Source: an uncultured Pseudomonadota bacterium (lineage in GTDB: Bacteria > Desulfobacterota_B > Binatia > UBA9968). From it: DNA of 6,501 nucleotides. The notes beneath the pieces are model-generated. The model had not been told where the DNA came from. It made no database searches and was given only the letters and a program-made list of their open reading frames with translations. Location: contig CAMLCX010000286.1 in assembly GCA_946478635.1 (NCBI GenBank), forward strand, positions 1 through 6,501, read 5' to 3'. Positions 1 through 6,501 of the stretch are shown here, piece by piece. The stretch's first letter is position 1; each line of letters begins with the position of its first letter. The translations under genes were made by a program, and so were the position numbers.

Positions 1-192
1 CGATCCGCGATATTCTCTCAGAGAATGAATCTTGTCGAAGCTACGATCACGTCCGAAGCGCGTGGCGCGATTTCGCTTGATGATATCGAGAAGCAGCTGA
101 TTCTGAATTTCTTCCGGTTTGCTGGTGAGGCTTTGCCGGCGCGTCCATTGACGGCCGGCGAGATACGCCGCGGCTTTCAAGAGCACGCCCAT
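1..192 (-). CDS. GH3 auxin-responsive promoter family protein, N-terminal fragment (cut by left edge)
   Basis: A minus-strand reading frame opens at an ATG (192-190) and stays open to the left edge, giving the first 64 residues. The pattern is that of the N-terminus of bacterial GH3 proteins: an amphipathic opening helix, then QNQLLLDIIKRNRATRFGRD (residues 30-49), then a short helix ending in a YR-containing segment (residue 61 on). GH3 enzymes belong to the acyl-adenylate-forming superfamily. Plant members join amino acids to jasmonate or auxin; most bacterial members have no known substrate. The catalytic ATP-binding motifs lie outside the window, so activity cannot be judged. The start lies 5 bases past the stop of the HDO-enolase gene and has no clear Shine-Dalgarno of its own, which suggests translational coupling in one operon. 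The family call rests on remembered motif pattern over a short fragment, so I am fairly but not fully sure. Confidence 0.72.
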   Translation of the reverse strand, partial: MGVLLKAAAYLAGRQWTRRQSLTSKPEEIQNQLLLDIIKRNRATRFGRDRSFDKIHSLREYRGS

Positions 193-197
193 GGGTT

Positions 198-2069
198 CTA
201 CCGGCGCAGCTCGAGCTTCGCGCTCGCAAAGCGTTCCAGGGCGTCTTCCTTCACTATGACGCTCAGGCCGCGAGTTTTTAGTAGCGGCGCCCGGCCGCCC
301 AAGCCGAACGCGACGTTTTCGAAGGTGACATCTTCGCTGAGAAGCCAGGTGCCAAAGGAACCCTCGGCAAAGGCGAGCGCGGGCAAGTGCGCCGCGAACG
401 CGCGCCCGGCAGCCGAGAGAATTCCCGTTTCGCCCACCTGAGCGCCGACTTGAATTTTGATGCCGGCGTCCTGGGCGAGCCGGGCGATGGCCAGACTGCC
501 GGCAATGCCGCCGCATTTGGATAATCGGATGTTGAAATAGTCAGCGGCTTTCATCTCGATCAGGCGGCGCGCCTGTTCAAGCGTGATGAGCGATTCATCC
601 GCCATTACCGGAATACCGCCTTCCTCGCGCACTTGCTTCATGCCGGCAAGATCGGCGGCTGCGACGGGCTGCTCGATTGCCTGCAACTTGAATCTGGCGA
701 GTTGCTGAAGATTTGCGATGGCCTCGCTCGCGCTCCATGCGCCGTTGGCGTCGGCGCGGAGCTCGACTCCCACCCCGGCGGCTCTGCGGACAGCTTCCAG
801 ACGCGCAATGTCGTCGCCGGTACCGACTTTTACTTTGATTTGCCGCAGGCCGAGCCGCGCCATTCTCCTGGCAAGCGCGGCGGCGTCCGCCGCCGTGTCC
901 GCCGAAATCACGCCGCTATAAACCACTTCGGCGCGGACCGGTGGAAGCAGGTCCGCGAGCGCGCAATGATCGGCGCGCAGGCTCCAATCTAGCAGTGCTA
1001 GTTCGACTGCGCAAAAGGCGGTATTCCAGGCGACGACGTCGCGGTGGTTTTTGTCGACTTCAGTCCATTTCGGCAGCGCGGCTTGAAGATACTCGAGAGT
1101 TTCCCATCCTGGCGCGAAGGTTTCGGCGAAAATTGCCGGAGCCAATCGCTCTCTGACGTGCGCCAGCATGGAATCGGTTGTTTCGCCGGTGACATAAGAA
1201 CGCGGCAGGCTTTCACCGAAACCGCTACGTCCCTCGCCATCGGTCACTTTGACGATGACGGCGTCGCTCTCTTCGCGGCTTTGCAGCGCATGGCGAAAGG
1301 ACTGATGGAACGGGATGCGCAGTTGATAAATAGTCATGGATTCTATTCGCTTTGCTTTCGCCGGCTCGCTTCTGGCACGCGTGCGCTGCCGGGAGATCGG
1401 CGGAAAGTAATGACGCACAAAGAGACGGTCGCCCAGCGTGAAGCGCGCGATGTGATCGAACAAATCATCGGAGATGTGATGAAACGCCAAGTAGTCTATA
1501 ACAATAGTCACGCCTTCTTCGGCATGGCGAATATCCACCTCGGAGTGCAGCTCGAACCAGCGCAGCGCCGGCTTCGCGAATTCATACTTACCGATGAGCG
1601 CGCCGGCGATCTCGCTCGAGCAGCGCGACAGCATGAACTCGAAGCACATGGTTTCCAGCAGCACGGACAGGCAGAGCTCGCGCAAGGTCGCCACCGGCAC
1701 GCGGGTGGCGCAGAAGACGGCGACCCGCTGGCGCGCCTCGGCGATCAATCGATCGATTTCATTTTCAGCGAAGCCAATGCCGCGCGCCAACTCCAGCAGC
1801 AGCGCCGAGTGCGGTTTCTCGTCCTCCGAGCGGCCCATCTCTTCCAGGAGATTTTCTTTCAATAATTCGGCGGCAGTGGACGGCAGCGAAGCAAAGCACA
1901 GCGCGACGATATGCGAGGATAAATAGTGGGTGCGAAACACGTTGCGGAGAAATTCGCGCGCTGCTTCAGACGAGGCGCGACCGGAAACCAGAACTTGATA
2001 CTCCGGGGAGTCGCGGAACTCCCGCGTTGCCTGATCGAATGCTTGGTTGATCTTGTCCACAGAGATCAT
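198..2069 (-). CDS. HDO (haem-oxygenase-like diiron oxidase) fused to an MLE-subgroup enolase-superfamily enzyme
   Basis: This is one uninterrupted 623-residue frame with two enzyme domains. Residues 1 to about 222 form an all-helical haem-oxygenase-like fold of the TenA/PqqC/CADD type. Its putative iron ligands are all present: E77 (LLEEMG), H87, E139 (LLETMCFEF) and the H175-D179-H182 cluster (HSEVDIRH). E77-H87 and the H-x3-D-x2-H spacing match known HDO diiron enzymes such as SznF. A basic, Pro/Ala-containing linker (about 223-244) follows. Residues 245-623 form an enolase-superfamily domain with the MLE-subgroup catalytic set: KVKVG (K412, K414), metal ligands D440 (RADANG), E466 (IEQP) and D491 (ADES), and the opposing lysine K518 (LSKCGG). 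That domain could be a dipeptide epimerase, N-acylamino acid racemase, o-succinylbenzoate synthase or cycloisomerase; motifs alone do not decide. No signal peptide or membrane segment is seen, so it is probably cytosolic. The ATG at 2069 follows a GAGG with 5-base spacing. The internal ATG at 1337 (M245) has no visible Shine-Dalgarno, which supports true fusion. It lies 41 bases after the aas stop. Confidence 0.88.
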   Translation of the reverse strand: MISVDKINQAFDQATREFRDSPEYQVLVSGRASSEAAREFLRNVFRTHYLSSHIVALCFASLPSTAAELLKENLLEEMGRSEDEKPHSALLLELARGIGFAENEIDRLIAEARQRVAVFCATRVPVATLRELCLSVLLETMCFEFMLSRCSSEIAGALIGKYEFAKPALRWFELHSEVDIRHAEEGVTIVIDYLAFHHISDDLFDHIARFTLGDRLFVRHYFPPISRQRTRARSEPAKAKRIESMTIYQLRIPFHQSFRHALQSREESDAVIVKVTDGEGRSGFGESLPRSYVTGETTDSMLAHVRERLAPAIFAETFAPGWETLEYLQAALPKWTEVDKNHRDVVAWNTAFCAVELALLDWSLRADHCALADLLPPVRAEVVYSGVISADTAADAAALARRMARLGLRQIKVKVGTGDDIARLEAVRRAAGVGVELRADANGAWSASEAIANLQQLARFKLQAIEQPVAAADLAGMKQVREEGGIPVMADESLITLEQARRLIEMKAADYFNIRLSKCGGIAGSLAIARLAQDAGIKIQVGAQVGETGILSAAGRAFAAHLPALAFAEGSFGTWLLSEDVTFENVAFGLGGRAPLLKTRGLSVIVKEDALERFASAKLELRR

Positions 2070-2074
2070 CGGAA

Positions 2075-2078
2075 CCTC
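2075..2078 (-). promoter_or_regulatory. Ribosome binding site of the HDO-enolase gene
   Basis: GAGG on the minus strand sits 5 bases before the ATG at 2069-2067, inside the 41-base gap after the aas stop. It fixes the start of the fusion at the HDO domain rather than at the internal ATG before the enolase domain. No hairpin plus T-run terminator is seen in the gap, consistent with read-through from aas. Confidence 0.6.
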
Positions 2079-2110: not shown

Positions 2111-5100
2111 TTAGGATCCAGGCCGCTGAACTCGCTCCTGGGCCATGGCCTTGATTTCCCGCAAATCAACTTTGCCGGAGCCGAGCAGCGGCAGGGAGTC
2201 GACGGCATAGAGATTTTCGCGTTTGGGTATCCACAGCTTCGGCAAGTTGGACTGGTTCAATTTGTCCCAGAGTTCTTCTCTGCTGATACCGTTCTGCGCA
2301 TAGAACGCCACGAGTTTTTCGCCGCGCTGCTCGTCGGGCAGCGCGGTAACGGCCGCTGCCGCGCTGCCTAAAACTTCGTTGATCGTCTCTTCGACTTTCA
2401 CGTGCGGCACCATTTCGCCGCCGATCTTGCTGAAGCGGGAAATCCGATCGACGATTCGAATGAAACCGTCCTCGTCCAGCACCGCGATGTCGCCGGTAAC
2501 ATACCAGCCATGGCGCAGCGACTGATCGGTGAGGTGGGGTTGGCCAAGGTAACCAAGCATCAAATTCGGGCCCTTCACGAGAAGCAAGCCCTCTTCGCCG
2601 GGAGGCAATGGATGCTCGGAGTCCCGGTCGACGATCTTAACCGCAACGCCGGGAAGCGGCTGGCCGACCGTGCCAGGTTTATAGCCAATTTGTTTCTCGC
2701 TGCGATAATCTACATCGCTGGTGTTCACCGAAACGACCGGCGCGAGCTCGGTACAACCGTAGCCCTCCAGAATCGTGATGCCGTATTTTTCCCGGTAGCC
2801 CCGGACGACCGGCTCGCGAAGCTTCTCCGCGCCGGCGATCACATAACGGAGCGAGGCAAATTCTTCTTTAGCGCAGCGGCGCAGGTATCCGCCGAAAAAC
2901 GTCGATGTGCTGATCAAAAGCGTGGCTTTGTACTTCCGCACCGTTTCGCCGATCGTCTTGGCGTCGGTGGGATTGGGATGATAAACCACGCCAAAGTCGG
3001 CGAGCAACGGCAGCCAGAGCGTCCCGGTGAATCCGAAGGAATGAAACAGCGGCAACACGCCCATGATGCGATCGTCGGAGGTAAAGTGAATGACCTGACC
3101 TATGCCTTCGACATTCGAAACAATATTGCGATGCGACAGCATCACACCTTTGGGCGTGCCCGTGCTACCGCTGGAAAAAATGACCGTGGCGAGATCGTTG
3201 GGTCTCTGAGTCTTGAAATATCGGCGGTTGAGCCAGGAGGCGGGGAGAAGGAATGCTTTCACGGCGGCGGCGAGTTTTTGCAGCGACGAAAAGTCTTTTC
3301 GGATTTCTTCGAGAAAGACCATGCCCTCGGTCTTTTCCATGCTGGCTTTTGACAGAAAGATTCTGGACGTTAGAATCGTTCGGATCCCGCACTGCTCAAC
3401 GGCCGCAGCCATCGCTTCGCGTCCGGCCGTGAAGTTCAAGTTAACCGGAACTTTGCCGGCGAGAAGGACCGCAATATTGGCAAGCGCTCCGCCGACGGAT
3501 GCCGGCAAAAGAATGCCAACCATGGACTCTGTCGGGCAGCGCCGTTTTACCCAGTGGGACAGCACCAGGCCACCGATCAGCGTCTTGCCATATGTCAGCT
3601 CCATGCCTGTGGTGTCGGCCATACAAAAGGCAAACCAGTGCCGTTTCGCGGCTCGAATGAATCTTGTGTGGAGCAATTCGGCGGCGCTGGGACGATGTTC
3701 GAAGGCTTGGCTCTCGAGTTCGGCGACGGCGCTGCGAACTTCGTGGACGGTGGCGTTGGAGCGTAATGGCGATCCGAACGAGACCGTCACTGGGTAGAAC
3801 CAGCGCTTCGGCCACTTCCAGAAAAAACGCCCTTCTTTGAAGCTGAATATGCTGCCCCAGAGCTGGTCCAGATGAACCGGTATGATCGGGACGTTGGTTC
3901 CTTCGACGATCTTTTCAAAGCCGCGTTTGAAGGGAAGCAACCGGCCGGTGCGAGTGATGGCGCCTTCGGCGAAAATACAAACCACGTGCCCTTTGTCCAA
4001 TTCGTTGCGCGCGTGCTTGAGCGATTGAACGATGTCGCGCCGGTTGGTTGCTGACACGGGAATCGAGTGCATGAGGCGAAAAAACCAATTCAATCCTTTG
4101 AGCTCGTAATATTCGCGGTGCAGCATGAAACGAACCAGTCGCGGTAATGCCCCACCGACCATAAACGCGTCGACGAACGAAACATGATTCGACACCAGCA
4201 ACGCCGGGCCGTTGAGCGGCATGTTTTCCGCGCCGACGATCTTCATGCGATAAATCGAGTGGGTGAACAGCCAGAGAATCAAGCGCACGAAATAGTCGGG
4301 CAGGAAATAAAGAATCGCGATAGTGCCGCCCAAGGTCAGCAAACCTGTCAGCAGAATGATCGCCTCAGGGGTGAATTGCAGCGGCGTCTTGAACAGCCAA
4401 TGGATCGCCGCCGCGAGAACGATGCCGATGGTATTCATGAAGTTGTTGGTCGCGATCAGTTGGCCTTTTTCTTCACGACCGGCTTTTTGCTGCAGATATG
4501 CATTTAAAGGCACAGCAAATAAACCCGCCGAAAAACCGAGGCCGACCAGGGCCATGGCCGTGTGCGCATAGGAGGGCGCGGCGAGCGCAACCAAGCCGAG
4601 GAATATGCCCATGGCGACCGAGCCCAGCGGAACCAGGCCCAGTTCGATATGGTCACCGGAAAGGCGGCCGGCCGCGAGACTGCCCAAGCCGATGCCGATC
4701 GCTAGGAATGTGCCGAGCAGGCCGATATGAAATTCATCGAGGTGGAGCAACTCCTTGCCGAAAAAAAGCATGTTGATCTGCACGAGCGCACCAAGGAACC
4801 AGAAATAAGAGATGCCGATCACGGTGAGCCACAACGGTTTATCGCGGCGTAATCGGTGCAAGCCTTCGGCGATTTCCCCGAATGGATTCAAAAGAAAGAG
4901 TTTTGCCGCGCCGGATGGCGGAACGCGCGCGATCCCCAGGCTCGTCATCGTGCCCAGGATCGCAATCGCCAACATCAAGACACCGATCAGCGGCAGATGG
5001 TCCTTCCAAACCGAAAAAATGGCGCTGCCCACCGAGGTGCCGAGGATGATCGCCATGAACGTGCTCATTTCCAACAGACCGTTGCCGCGGGAAAGATCTT

Positions 5101-5512
5101 TGTCGGGCAGCATTTCCGGCAAAATGCCGTACTTGGCCGGACTGAAAAATGTCGCGTGAAGGCCCATCAGAAAAACCAGTGCGAGCATGGACCGGAGGTG
5201 GCCTGTGAAGAATGCCGCGATCGCCAGAACCATGATGCCGATTTCGAACATTTTCACCGCGACCAGGATGGATCTCTTGCTGTACACGTCCGCCAGATGC
5301 CCGGCATACCCAGAAAACAAAGCTGAGGGCAGAATGAACAAGAAGGCGATGATCTCGACATAGCCCGGTCCGCCATTGACCGCGAGATCCAAAGCCACGA
5401 ATGAGACCACGATTTTTAAAAAGTTGTCGTTGAACGCGCCGAGAAATTGCGTCCAGAAAAACGCAAAAAAGCCCGGCTCTTTCAGCGTGTCGATGTATCT
5501 GCCGTCCGCCAT
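2111..5512 (-). CDS. aas: LplT-PlsC-Aas triple fusion: lysophospholipid transporter / acyltransferase / acyl-ACP synthetase
   Basis: A protein of 1133 residues (from the ATG at 5512) with three domains. Residues 1 to about 410 are a polytopic MFS module opening with GAFNDNFLK, as in LplT, which flips lysophospholipids across the inner membrane. Residues about 425-620 are a PlsC-type acyltransferase with HX4D in NHVSFVDA (H443, D448) and FAEGAITRTG (E516). Residues about 635-1130 are an AMP-forming acyl-ACP synthetase: SSGSTGTPKG near 780-790, GYGCTE (917-922), the TGD aspartate (D1008) and the adenylation lysine K1114 in GSGKVD. All key residues are present, so the protein looks functional. 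Known members activate free fatty acids onto ACP and re-acylate 2-acyl-glycerophosphoethanolamine at the inner membrane; E. coli splits these jobs between LplT and Aas, and single-chain versions occur elsewhere. The frame also extends upstream to a TTG at 5569, adding 19 residues with no better ribosome binding site. I prefer the ATG because the transporter motif starts soon after it. First gene of the probable operon with the HDO-enolase and GH3 genes. Confidence 0.92.
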   Translation of the reverse strand: MADGRYIDTLKEPGFFAFFWTQFLGAFNDNFLKIVVSFVALDLAVNGGPGYVEIIAFLFILPSALFSGYAGHLADVYSKRSILVAVKMFEIGIMVLAIAAFFTGHLRSMLALVFLMGLHATFFSPAKYGILPEMLPDKDLSRGNGLLEMSTFMAIILGTSVGSAIFSVWKDHLPLIGVLMLAIAILGTMTSLGIARVPPSGAAKLFLLNPFGEIAEGLHRLRRDKPLWLTVIGISYFWFLGALVQINMLFFGKELLHLDEFHIGLLGTFLAIGIGLGSLAAGRLSGDHIELGLVPLGSVAMGIFLGLVALAAPSYAHTAMALVGLGFSAGLFAVPLNAYLQQKAGREEKGQLIATNNFMNTIGIVLAAAIHWLFKTPLQFTPEAIILLTGLLTLGGTIAILYFLPDYFVRLILWLFTHSIYRMKIVGAENMPLNGPALLVSNHVSFVDAFMVGGALPRLVRFMLHREYYELKGLNWFFRLMHSIPVSATNRRDIVQSLKHARNELDKGHVVCIFAEGAITRTGRLLPFKRGFEKIVEGTNVPIIPVHLDQLWGSIFSFKEGRFFWKWPKRWFYPVTVSFGSPLRSNATVHEVRSAVAELESQAFEHRPSAAELLHTRFIRAAKRHWFAFCMADTTGMELTYGKTLIGGLVLSHWVKRRCPTESMVGILLPASVGGALANIAVLLAGKVPVNLNFTAGREAMAAAVEQCGIRTILTSRIFLSKASMEKTEGMVFLEEIRKDFSSLQKLAAAVKAFLLPASWLNRRYFKTQRPNDLATVIFSSGSTGTPKGVMLSHRNIVSNVEGIGQVIHFTSDDRIMGVLPLFHSFGFTGTLWLPLLADFGVVYHPNPTDAKTIGETVRKYKATLLISTSTFFGGYLRRCAKEEFASLRYVIAGAEKLREPVVRGYREKYGITILEGYGCTELAPVVSVNTSDVDYRSEKQIGYKPGTVGQPLPGVAVKIVDRDSEHPLPPGEEGLLLVKGPNLMLGYLGQPHLTDQSLRHGWYVTGDIAVLDEDGFIRIVDRISRFSKIGGEMVPHVKVEETINEVLGSAAAAVTALPDEQRGEKLVAFYAQNGISREELWDKLNQSNLPKLWIPKRENLYAVDSLPLLGSGKVDLREIKAMAQERVQRPGS

Positions 5513-5712
5513 GGAAGTCACTTCAGCTCGTTGACGCTTATATTTCGGCAAAAAGGACCCATAATTCAAGAGAAATTTTCAACGGGCTGCGCGCCCTCGC
5601 AAAATTCTCCGGTATTGGCGCGGGACCGCTGGCGACAGTCGATGAAGTAAGCCTGGATTCGTGCCCGGAGGCAAGCAGGTCGGTGCCCTAAGAAGGAATG
5701 GCCACAATAAGA
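5513..5712. other. 200-base leader region upstream of aas
   Basis: This stretch separates the small hypothetical frame from the aas start and should carry the operon promoter on the minus strand. I see A/T-rich sequence around 5541-5580 (minus strand TTGAAAATTT and AAATATAAG), but no -35/-10 pair with normal spacing and no clear sigma-54 GG-N10-GC promoter. No convincing Shine-Dalgarno precedes the aas ATG; the nearest purine run on the minus strand is GAAGTGA. Confidence 0.4.
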
Positions 5713-6252: not shown

Positions 6253-6501
6253 TCAGGATTTCGTTTGACGGAGGCGATAGAGTTTCATCTTGGTTTGAAG
6301 TGTGGCCCGGCTGATGCCCAGGAGCTTAGCCGCTCGCGTGACGTTGCCGCCGGTTGTGGCGAGGGCCTCGGCGATGGTTCGTTTTTCCACCACTCCGGTG
6401 GACTCGCGGGAGATTCCTTTTAGTCCGCGCGGCTCCGGCTTCGATGCCGCGCCGCGCAGCTCCGCCGGCAAATCGCCAACGTCGAGGAAATCGCCTTTCG
6501 A
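6253..6501 (-). CDS. Sigma-54-dependent transcriptional activator (NtrC-type), C-terminal fragment (cut by right edge)
   Basis: The frame is open from the right edge to a TGA at 6255-6253 and gives the last 82 residues. It begins with SKGDFLDVGDLPAELR, the usual end of an NtrC-type AAA+ domain, where a conserved DLP motif closes the module. A short Pro/Gly/Arg-rich linker follows (about residues 17-36). Last comes a Fis-type helix-turn-helix (about residues 38-77) with the hallmark GGNVTRAAKLLGISRATLQT (residues 51-70). Such proteins bind upstream enhancer sites and use ATP to open sigma-54 RNA polymerase promoters; many are response regulators paired with a sensor kinase. The receiver or sensory domain and the GAFTGA loop are outside the window, so the signal is unknown. 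It points towards the aas operon, but about 740 bases away, and no sigma-54 promoter was seen before aas, so a regulatory link is unproven. A TTG at 6471 could be misread as a start; the frame clearly continues upstream. Confidence 0.9.
   Translation of the reverse strand, partial: SKGDFLDVGDLPAELRGAASKPEPRGLKGISRESTGVVEKRTIAEALATTGGNVTRAAKLLGISRATLQTKMKLYRLRQTKS

Follow-up and report, generated by a model that had tools for sequence, protein, structure and literature searches.

The window analysed here, a stretch of 6,501 nucleotides from an uncultured bacterium of the Binatia (contig CAMLCX010000286.1 of assembly GCA_946478635.1), carries on its minus strand a gene for a protein of 623 amino acids (positions 198..2069), in which the called open reading frame runs without a stop from the ATG at 2069-2067 to the TAG at 200-198. 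Its product joins a heme-oxygenase-like dimetal oxidase (HDO) domain, presumably of the diiron type, to an MLE-subgroup enolase domain in one polypeptide. Three Pfam profiles match the protein above their curated cut-offs: Haem_oxygenas_2 (PF14518; residues 38-198, E 2.1e-15), MR_MLE_N (residues 250-375, E 5.2e-5) and MR_MLE_C (residues 396-610, E 4.6e-49). The HDO domain comprises residues 1-228 (1386..2069, minus strand) and the enolase domain residues 241-623 (201..1349, minus strand). They are connected by a linker of about residues 229-240 (1350..1385, minus strand), which is predicted with low confidence: the mean pLDDT of residues 231-240 is 56 in the predicted model, with values below 50 for residues 233-236 in one model and 229-234 in another. 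The mutual arrangement of the domains can therefore not be read from the predicted model. The sequence GAGG (2075..2078, minus strand), five bases 5' of the HDO ATG, is the likely Shine-Dalgarno element, and none was seen in the sequence before the internal ATG near 1337 (AATAGAATCC-ATG). Thus, the original prediction was right in describing a single continuous polypeptide with a likely ribosome binding site in front of the HDO start.

Five bases beyond the stop codon of the fusion gene starts a gene for a GH3-family amide synthetase (1..192, minus strand; PF03321, E 2.8e-7), which is cut by the end of the window. On the other side, an Aas-type gene (2111..5569, minus strand), encoding an MFS transporter (PF07690), a PlsC acyltransferase (PF01553) and an acyl-AMP ligase (PF00501), ends 41 bases upstream of the fusion start; it scores 1395 bits against NF006386, above the equivalog cut-off of 1221. 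The location of these three genes on one strand gives a predicted operon-like layout. At 6256-6501 (minus strand) the window end truncates a regulator, of which the C-terminal part with a Fis-type HTH_8 domain is present.

A protein search in which 7997 candidates were scored yielded 1698 relatives at E ≤1e-3. The best 120 of these 1698 are 74-94% identical to the query and all have both domains in the precomputed Pfam annotation; 119 of them are 619-640 amino acids long and one has 574. NCBI gives an organism name for six of these 120, namely five Candidatus Binatia and one Polarisedimenticolaceae. Since such relatives are full-length, the stop that could have been hidden by a sequencing error near 1340-1400 is not there, and an assembly chimera is likewise ruled out by the 153 fused sequences that were compared. 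A pattern scan of GTDB genomes for close relatives gave two loci, one in a Deltaproteobacteria MAG and one in a Candidatus Binatia MAG. Among 145 genomes drawn from the class of genome G001, which is the class of the nearest relatives and includes the Binatia MAG G002, some match to the fusion protein was found in 111, the listed rows being mostly the enolase part alone; the complete fusion occurs in seven, and in an eighth (G130) it is cut by a contig end. A draw of 395 genomes from the phylum gave a match in G001 only. Searches at order level gave matches in 9 of 35 and 2 of 16 genomes, of which eight (including the truncated G130) and one, respectively, belong to the HDO-MLE fusion family; the weak matches in G018 and G076 fall outside it. 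No relative was found on viral contigs, and of 834 plasmid records with some match none had one place covering 80% of the fusion protein.

The N-terminal domain has the heme-oxygenase-like helical fold, as indicated by the PF14518 match and by comparison of the predicted model with known structures, in which CADD and HrmI, the latter as second-best match, head the lists. Heme oxygenase and TenA are also present in these lists, ranked below CADD and HrmI, and were rejected as readings. The proposed metal ligands E77, H87, E144, H175, D179 and H182, assigned by alignment to CADD, are invariant in all 153 fused sequences, including that of the window, and E77 and H87 align also with positions of FlcD. 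For the middle-helix ligand, E139 had originally been proposed, but the alignment points to E144: counted along HMMER alignments, the Glu at chain position 142 of CADD (1rcw), which we take to be a metal ligand, coincides with E144 and not with E139. None of the 153 fused and 117 HDO-only rows has a substitution of E144, and E139 is nearly invariant, being replaced by Thr in one HDO-only row. Thus, E144 rather than E139 is probably the ligand. With this correction, the six residues would match the pattern of three histidines and three carboxylates (3H/3C) described for the metal site of HDOs (PMC13108848). In other respects the domain is distant from known members, with only 12-18% identity in the structural matches to this superfamily, and it differs from CADD, HrmI, FlcD and UndA in being fused to an enolase. 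It also differs from FlcD, described as a mononuclear-iron variant (PMC13108848), in that the last core helix retains its three ligands.

In the enolase domain, K412/K414, D440/E466/D491 and K518 align with the catalytic residues of PDB entries 1jpm, 3jva and 2p88, as expected for the MLE subgroup, where the K-x-K motif is presumably on strand 2 and the catalytic Lys on strand 6. None of these residues varies among the 153 fused and 88 enolase-only rows. The claim that both halves keep their catalytic sets is borne out: the 12 residues that were named for it show no exception in a set of 128 fused sequences or in the set of 153, the window being a member of both. The three reference proteins share the fold and the full K-x-K / D-E-D / K set, but are only 28-30% identical and, unlike the present enolase, are not fused to an HDO. 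The top structural match is N-succinyl-Arg/Lys racemase (2p88), and the top sequence matches are dipeptide epimerases (1jpm, 3jva); since racemases, dipeptide epimerases and muconate cycloisomerases all lie within 3 Z units in the structure comparison, the reaction of this domain is not settled by these matches. According to their PDB titles, the matched racemases of the superfamily take N-acyl amino acids or dipeptides. Candidate pocket residues are R265, R290 and Y292, which show no substitution in the 153 fused rows and are shared by 85-87 of the 88 enolase-only rows. The acidic DDH loop of 2p88, which we infer contacts the substrate side chain, aligns with R290-S291-Y292, so that R290 stands at an Asp of the racemase and the acidic residues by which N-succinyl-Arg/Lys racemase would accommodate a basic side chain are replaced by R290-x-Y292. 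This replacement suggests an acidic or neutral side chain of the substrate, and it weakens the case for a basic head group that could be drawn from the match to 2p88.

Regarding the genomic context, the fusion is linked more consistently to the GH3 gene than to the Aas-type gene. A complete GH3 gene is located directly downstream of the fusion in loci L001 and L002, and the gap between the two genes is 3-6 bases in seven fused loci. With a GH3 profile built from eight neighbour genes and a threshold of E ≤1e-20, the clade was detected in 10 of the 145 class genomes, and in all 10 it is beside this type of enolase, which is fused to an HDO in seven, accompanied by a separate HDO in one and by an OlsE-like hydroxylase in two. 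Eight of these 10 genomes supplied the profile, and the independent finds are G034 and G137 only; absences among the 145 genomes carry little weight, as there are no completeness figures. In G058, the HDO, the enolase and GH3 are three consecutive genes. Second, lower-scoring GH3 copies exist in G034, G041 and G074, beside which the ORF beginnings in these short loci, inspected by eye, revealed no enolase. Distant second GH3 genes, at L071 710-3123 and L072 755 onward, adjoin a gene of about 240 amino acids that by eye looks acetyltransferase-like. The sole NCBIfam match of eight GH3 proteins scanned is OlsH (NF052613). The scores come from relatives, as the GH3 gene of the window is incomplete, and amount to 95-127 bits for seven clade members and 51 for one distant copy; they are so far under the cut-off of 620 that the match does not establish GH3 specificity.

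The Aas-type gene is less closely associated. It is directly upstream of the fusion in the window, L040, L041 and L046, separated by one ORF in L042 and 5.5 kb away in L001. By tblastn it is absent from the 8.4 kb upstream in L039, from 4.5 kb in L044, and from the split and OlsE-type loci L043, L045 and L069 (L002 begins 472 bases upstream of the fusion and is uninformative). A role of Aas as fixed partner was therefore rejected. Directly 3' of GH3, five of seven fused loci have a gene for a small protein of about 150 amino acids that by eye appears to be a multi-pass membrane protein (L041 12940-13395, L042 12710-13132, L046 4031-4519, L002 4043-4513, L040 about 6173-6580), for which no Pfam or NCBIfam match was obtained with the L041 protein and no Pfam match with that of L042. 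The biotin synthase gene bioB is near L001, L040, L041 and L046, and pgeF near L040, L041, L042 and L046; a link to biotin was discarded because the other loci yielded no bioB.

HDO-only proteins of about 235 amino acids and enolase-only proteins of about 380 are both common, the former from sources including Binatia and Pyrinomonadaceae, the latter from sources including Deltaproteobacteria, Rokuibacteriota, Vicinamibacteria, Methylomirabilota and Sericytochromatia. The objection that homologs might always be two separate genes thus holds only as far as two-gene forms are indeed common, whereas fused homologs are also many. Co-encoding of the split forms was examined with 78 HDO-only rows, 36 of which are on contigs of at least 3500 bp, and 83 enolase-only rows, leaving out two short-contig rows and rows without stated contig size. 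For 13 of the 36 HDO-only rows, the contig has exactly the same size in bp as that of an enolase-only row, as compared to a mean of 0.675 and at most 4 matches when sizes were shifted by 1-100, which suggests that split HDO and enolase are encoded together. A second fused group (P0320, P0321, P0331, P0335, P0336, P0338, P0342, P0346) exists in addition to the Binatia clade, and the long-branched P0306 is a further fused sequence outside both. Members of the second group (P0335, P0320/P0331/P0338/P0342) are on contigs of up to 2.5 Mb. A single fused HDO clade was rejected with p-AU 0.0007 (30 rows), or 0.024 without P0306, in a test that used quick trees with long branches and groups named after tree inspection. 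This rejection implies that HDO and enolase have probably been joined more than once; two or more fusions are likely, the second group perhaps being the product of an independent one, with fission as the alternative. The single fused clade of the first HDO tree is to be disregarded, since only one fused clade had been put in and the wider set changed the result. The enolase tree was not relied on because of two outgroup rows with branches of length 10, probably wrong ORFs; P0257 and P0339 in it are probably fragments of fused genes, and a G137 piece of less than 121 amino acids was dropped.

In two genomes another hydroxylase family takes the place of the HDO. An OlsE-like fatty-acid hydroxylase, GH3 and the enolase occur in a row in L045 (6846-10657, G074) and L069 (457-3385, G137, with the enolase apparently split over two contigs), and no HDO of the fusion family was found in G074 and G137. 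The replacement is one of position only. The ornithine-lipid hydroxylase OlsE belongs to PF04116, a family different from that of the HDOs and presumably of the diiron type. The two hydroxylases beside GH3 score 176 and 180 bits with the OlsE model (cut-off 475), and matches below this cut-off occur away from GH3 in seven of nine other genomes searched, with G041 and G134 as the exceptions. Since the strongest of these (G080:C24:30824-31684, 342 bits) is in a genome that also carries a fused HDO, an OlsE-like enzyme and an HDO are not mutually exclusive at the genome level.

The reading that we prefer, to which we give about even chances, is that the fusion protein is a predicted bifunctional tailoring enzyme of an N-acyl amino acid (amino-acid-lipid) pathway, in which the amino acid derivative is made by the neighbouring GH3. 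The latter would acylate an amino acid at its alpha-amine with a fatty acid, by analogy with OlsH, which converts fatty acid, ATP and ornithine to N-acyl-ornithine and whose relatives outside planctomycetes may, according to its authors, take other amino acids (PMC12493201). The enolase domain would bind the free carboxylate through Mg2+ and move the alpha-proton with K414 and K518, most likely resulting in inversion of the alpha-carbon, or else in dehydration. The dimetal site of the HDO domain would use O2 to oxidise the same molecule, by hydroxylation or desaturation of either the amino acid part or the acyl chain, and the Aas-type neighbour, through its PlsC domain, may attach a further acyl chain. 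HDO substrates can bind to Fe1 via a carboxylate, as described for MboA, an HDO acting on a tripeptide whose C-terminal Arg it desaturates (PMC13185094), and this action on a peptide C-terminus is a precedent for HDO chemistry on an N-acylated amino acid. Thus, the chemistry of OlsH, the N-acyl and dipeptide racemases and the carboxylate-binding HDOs together indicate that the three active sites would suit one N-acyl amino acid. For the substrate class, the order of these steps, epimerisation over dehydration, the kind of oxidation and the identity of the amino acid, we infer rather than observe. The original prediction of successive steps on one carboxylate substrate appears reasonable given the adjacent GH3, the split neighbours, the equal contig sizes and the probable repeated fusion; the GH3 operon, which it did not include, adds a suggestion of the substrate class. 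The arrangement resembles the OlsH/OlsI pathway of Singulisphaera (PMC12493201) in having a GH3-family synthetase in an operon and, at several loci, an acyltransferase domain in the vicinity. It differs in that a PlsC-type domain is found in place of OlsI and in the low OlsH score of GH3, and no HDO or enolase counterpart is mentioned in the main text of that paper, which contains none of the terms enolase, racemase, epimerase or heme.

Several alternatives, the first two and the strict ornithine-lipid one being narrower or variant forms of the preferred reading and not exclusive of it, deserve attention. It is possible, though unlikely, that the enolase is an OSBS-like syn-elimination dehydratase which removes water after hydroxylation of the beta-carbon by the HDO, leading to a dehydroamino-acid lipid. 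The combination of K-x-K with a third Lys is common to epimerases, dehydratases and cycloisomerases, and o-succinylbenzoate synthase structures are at most 2.6 Z units from the best structural match; still, the closest structure is that of a racemase and the closest sequences are those of dipeptide epimerases. An equally doubtful variant is that the HDO acts on the acyl chain in the manner of UndA, a fatty-acid HDO (PMC13108848), for instance by introducing a 3-hydroxyl for a second acylation, with the enolase acting on the amino acid part. The preference of OlsH for non-hydroxylated fatty acids, by which later hydroxylation may be needed (PMC12493201), and the PlsC-domain gene upstream of the fusion are in agreement with this. 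Somewhat less probable is a product other than a membrane lipid, where GH3 would conjugate a small molecule or free amino acid that the HDO and enolase had already modified. The known HDOs have their roles in natural-product biosynthesis (PMC13108848), but several loci have genes for an acyltransferase or a small membrane protein nearby, which argues against it, as do the N-acyl or dipeptide substrates of the matched racemases. We consider it slightly more improbable again that the fusion is strictly an ornithine-lipid enzyme, its HDO modifying the ornithine head group as OlsE does and its enolase making a D-ornithine lipid. OlsH as the sole GH3 match, the OlsE-like gene adjoining GH3 and enolase in two genomes, the racemase 2p88 as top structural match, and HrmI, which forms N6-hydroxylysine, all point in that direction, but the invariant R290 suggests an acidic or neutral side chain, no OlsH or OlsE match reaches its cut-off, and a PF13444 gene (the OlsB family, although PF13444 is broader as it also matches in E. 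coli) is present elsewhere in 5 of 11 genomes searched. That the fusion fixes only dosage or assembly of domains without a common substrate, as the low-confidence linker and the separate HDO-only and enolase-only proteins would allow, is very improbable in view of the likely repeated fusion and the linkage even when split.

Both halves of the protein belong to known families, and their combination and the operon were not found in the literature searched. No report was found for heme-oxygenase-like with enolase superfamily and fusion, for N-acyl amino acid with GH3 and enolase, or for N-succinyl-Arg with racemase; the sole match to iron-containing redox enzyme with muconate apparently concerns Acinetobacter resistance. 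Such absences are weak evidence because most subscription papers are outside these searches. The 2026 review on HDOs, in which about a dozen are listed as functionally validated, has no word beginning with fusion, fused, enolase, lipid or N-acyl (PMC13108848).

Returning to the preferred N-acyl amino acid pathway, a tentative and rather doubtful extension is that it leads to an undescribed class of bacterial amino-acid lipids. A single bifunctional diiron-oxidase/enolase protein would both epimerise and oxidise their head group, and in related operons an OlsE-type hydroxylase would serve as oxidase instead. The substrate class of the HDO is suggested here by the operon, the probably repeated fusion, and the fact that two related operons have a hydroxylase of another family at this position. 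If this reading holds, O2 chemistry would be coupled to alpha-carbon chemistry in one protein, the genes would form a compact set for expression and assay, and HDO chemistry would be linked to the amino lipids of soil bacteria that are for the most part uncultured.
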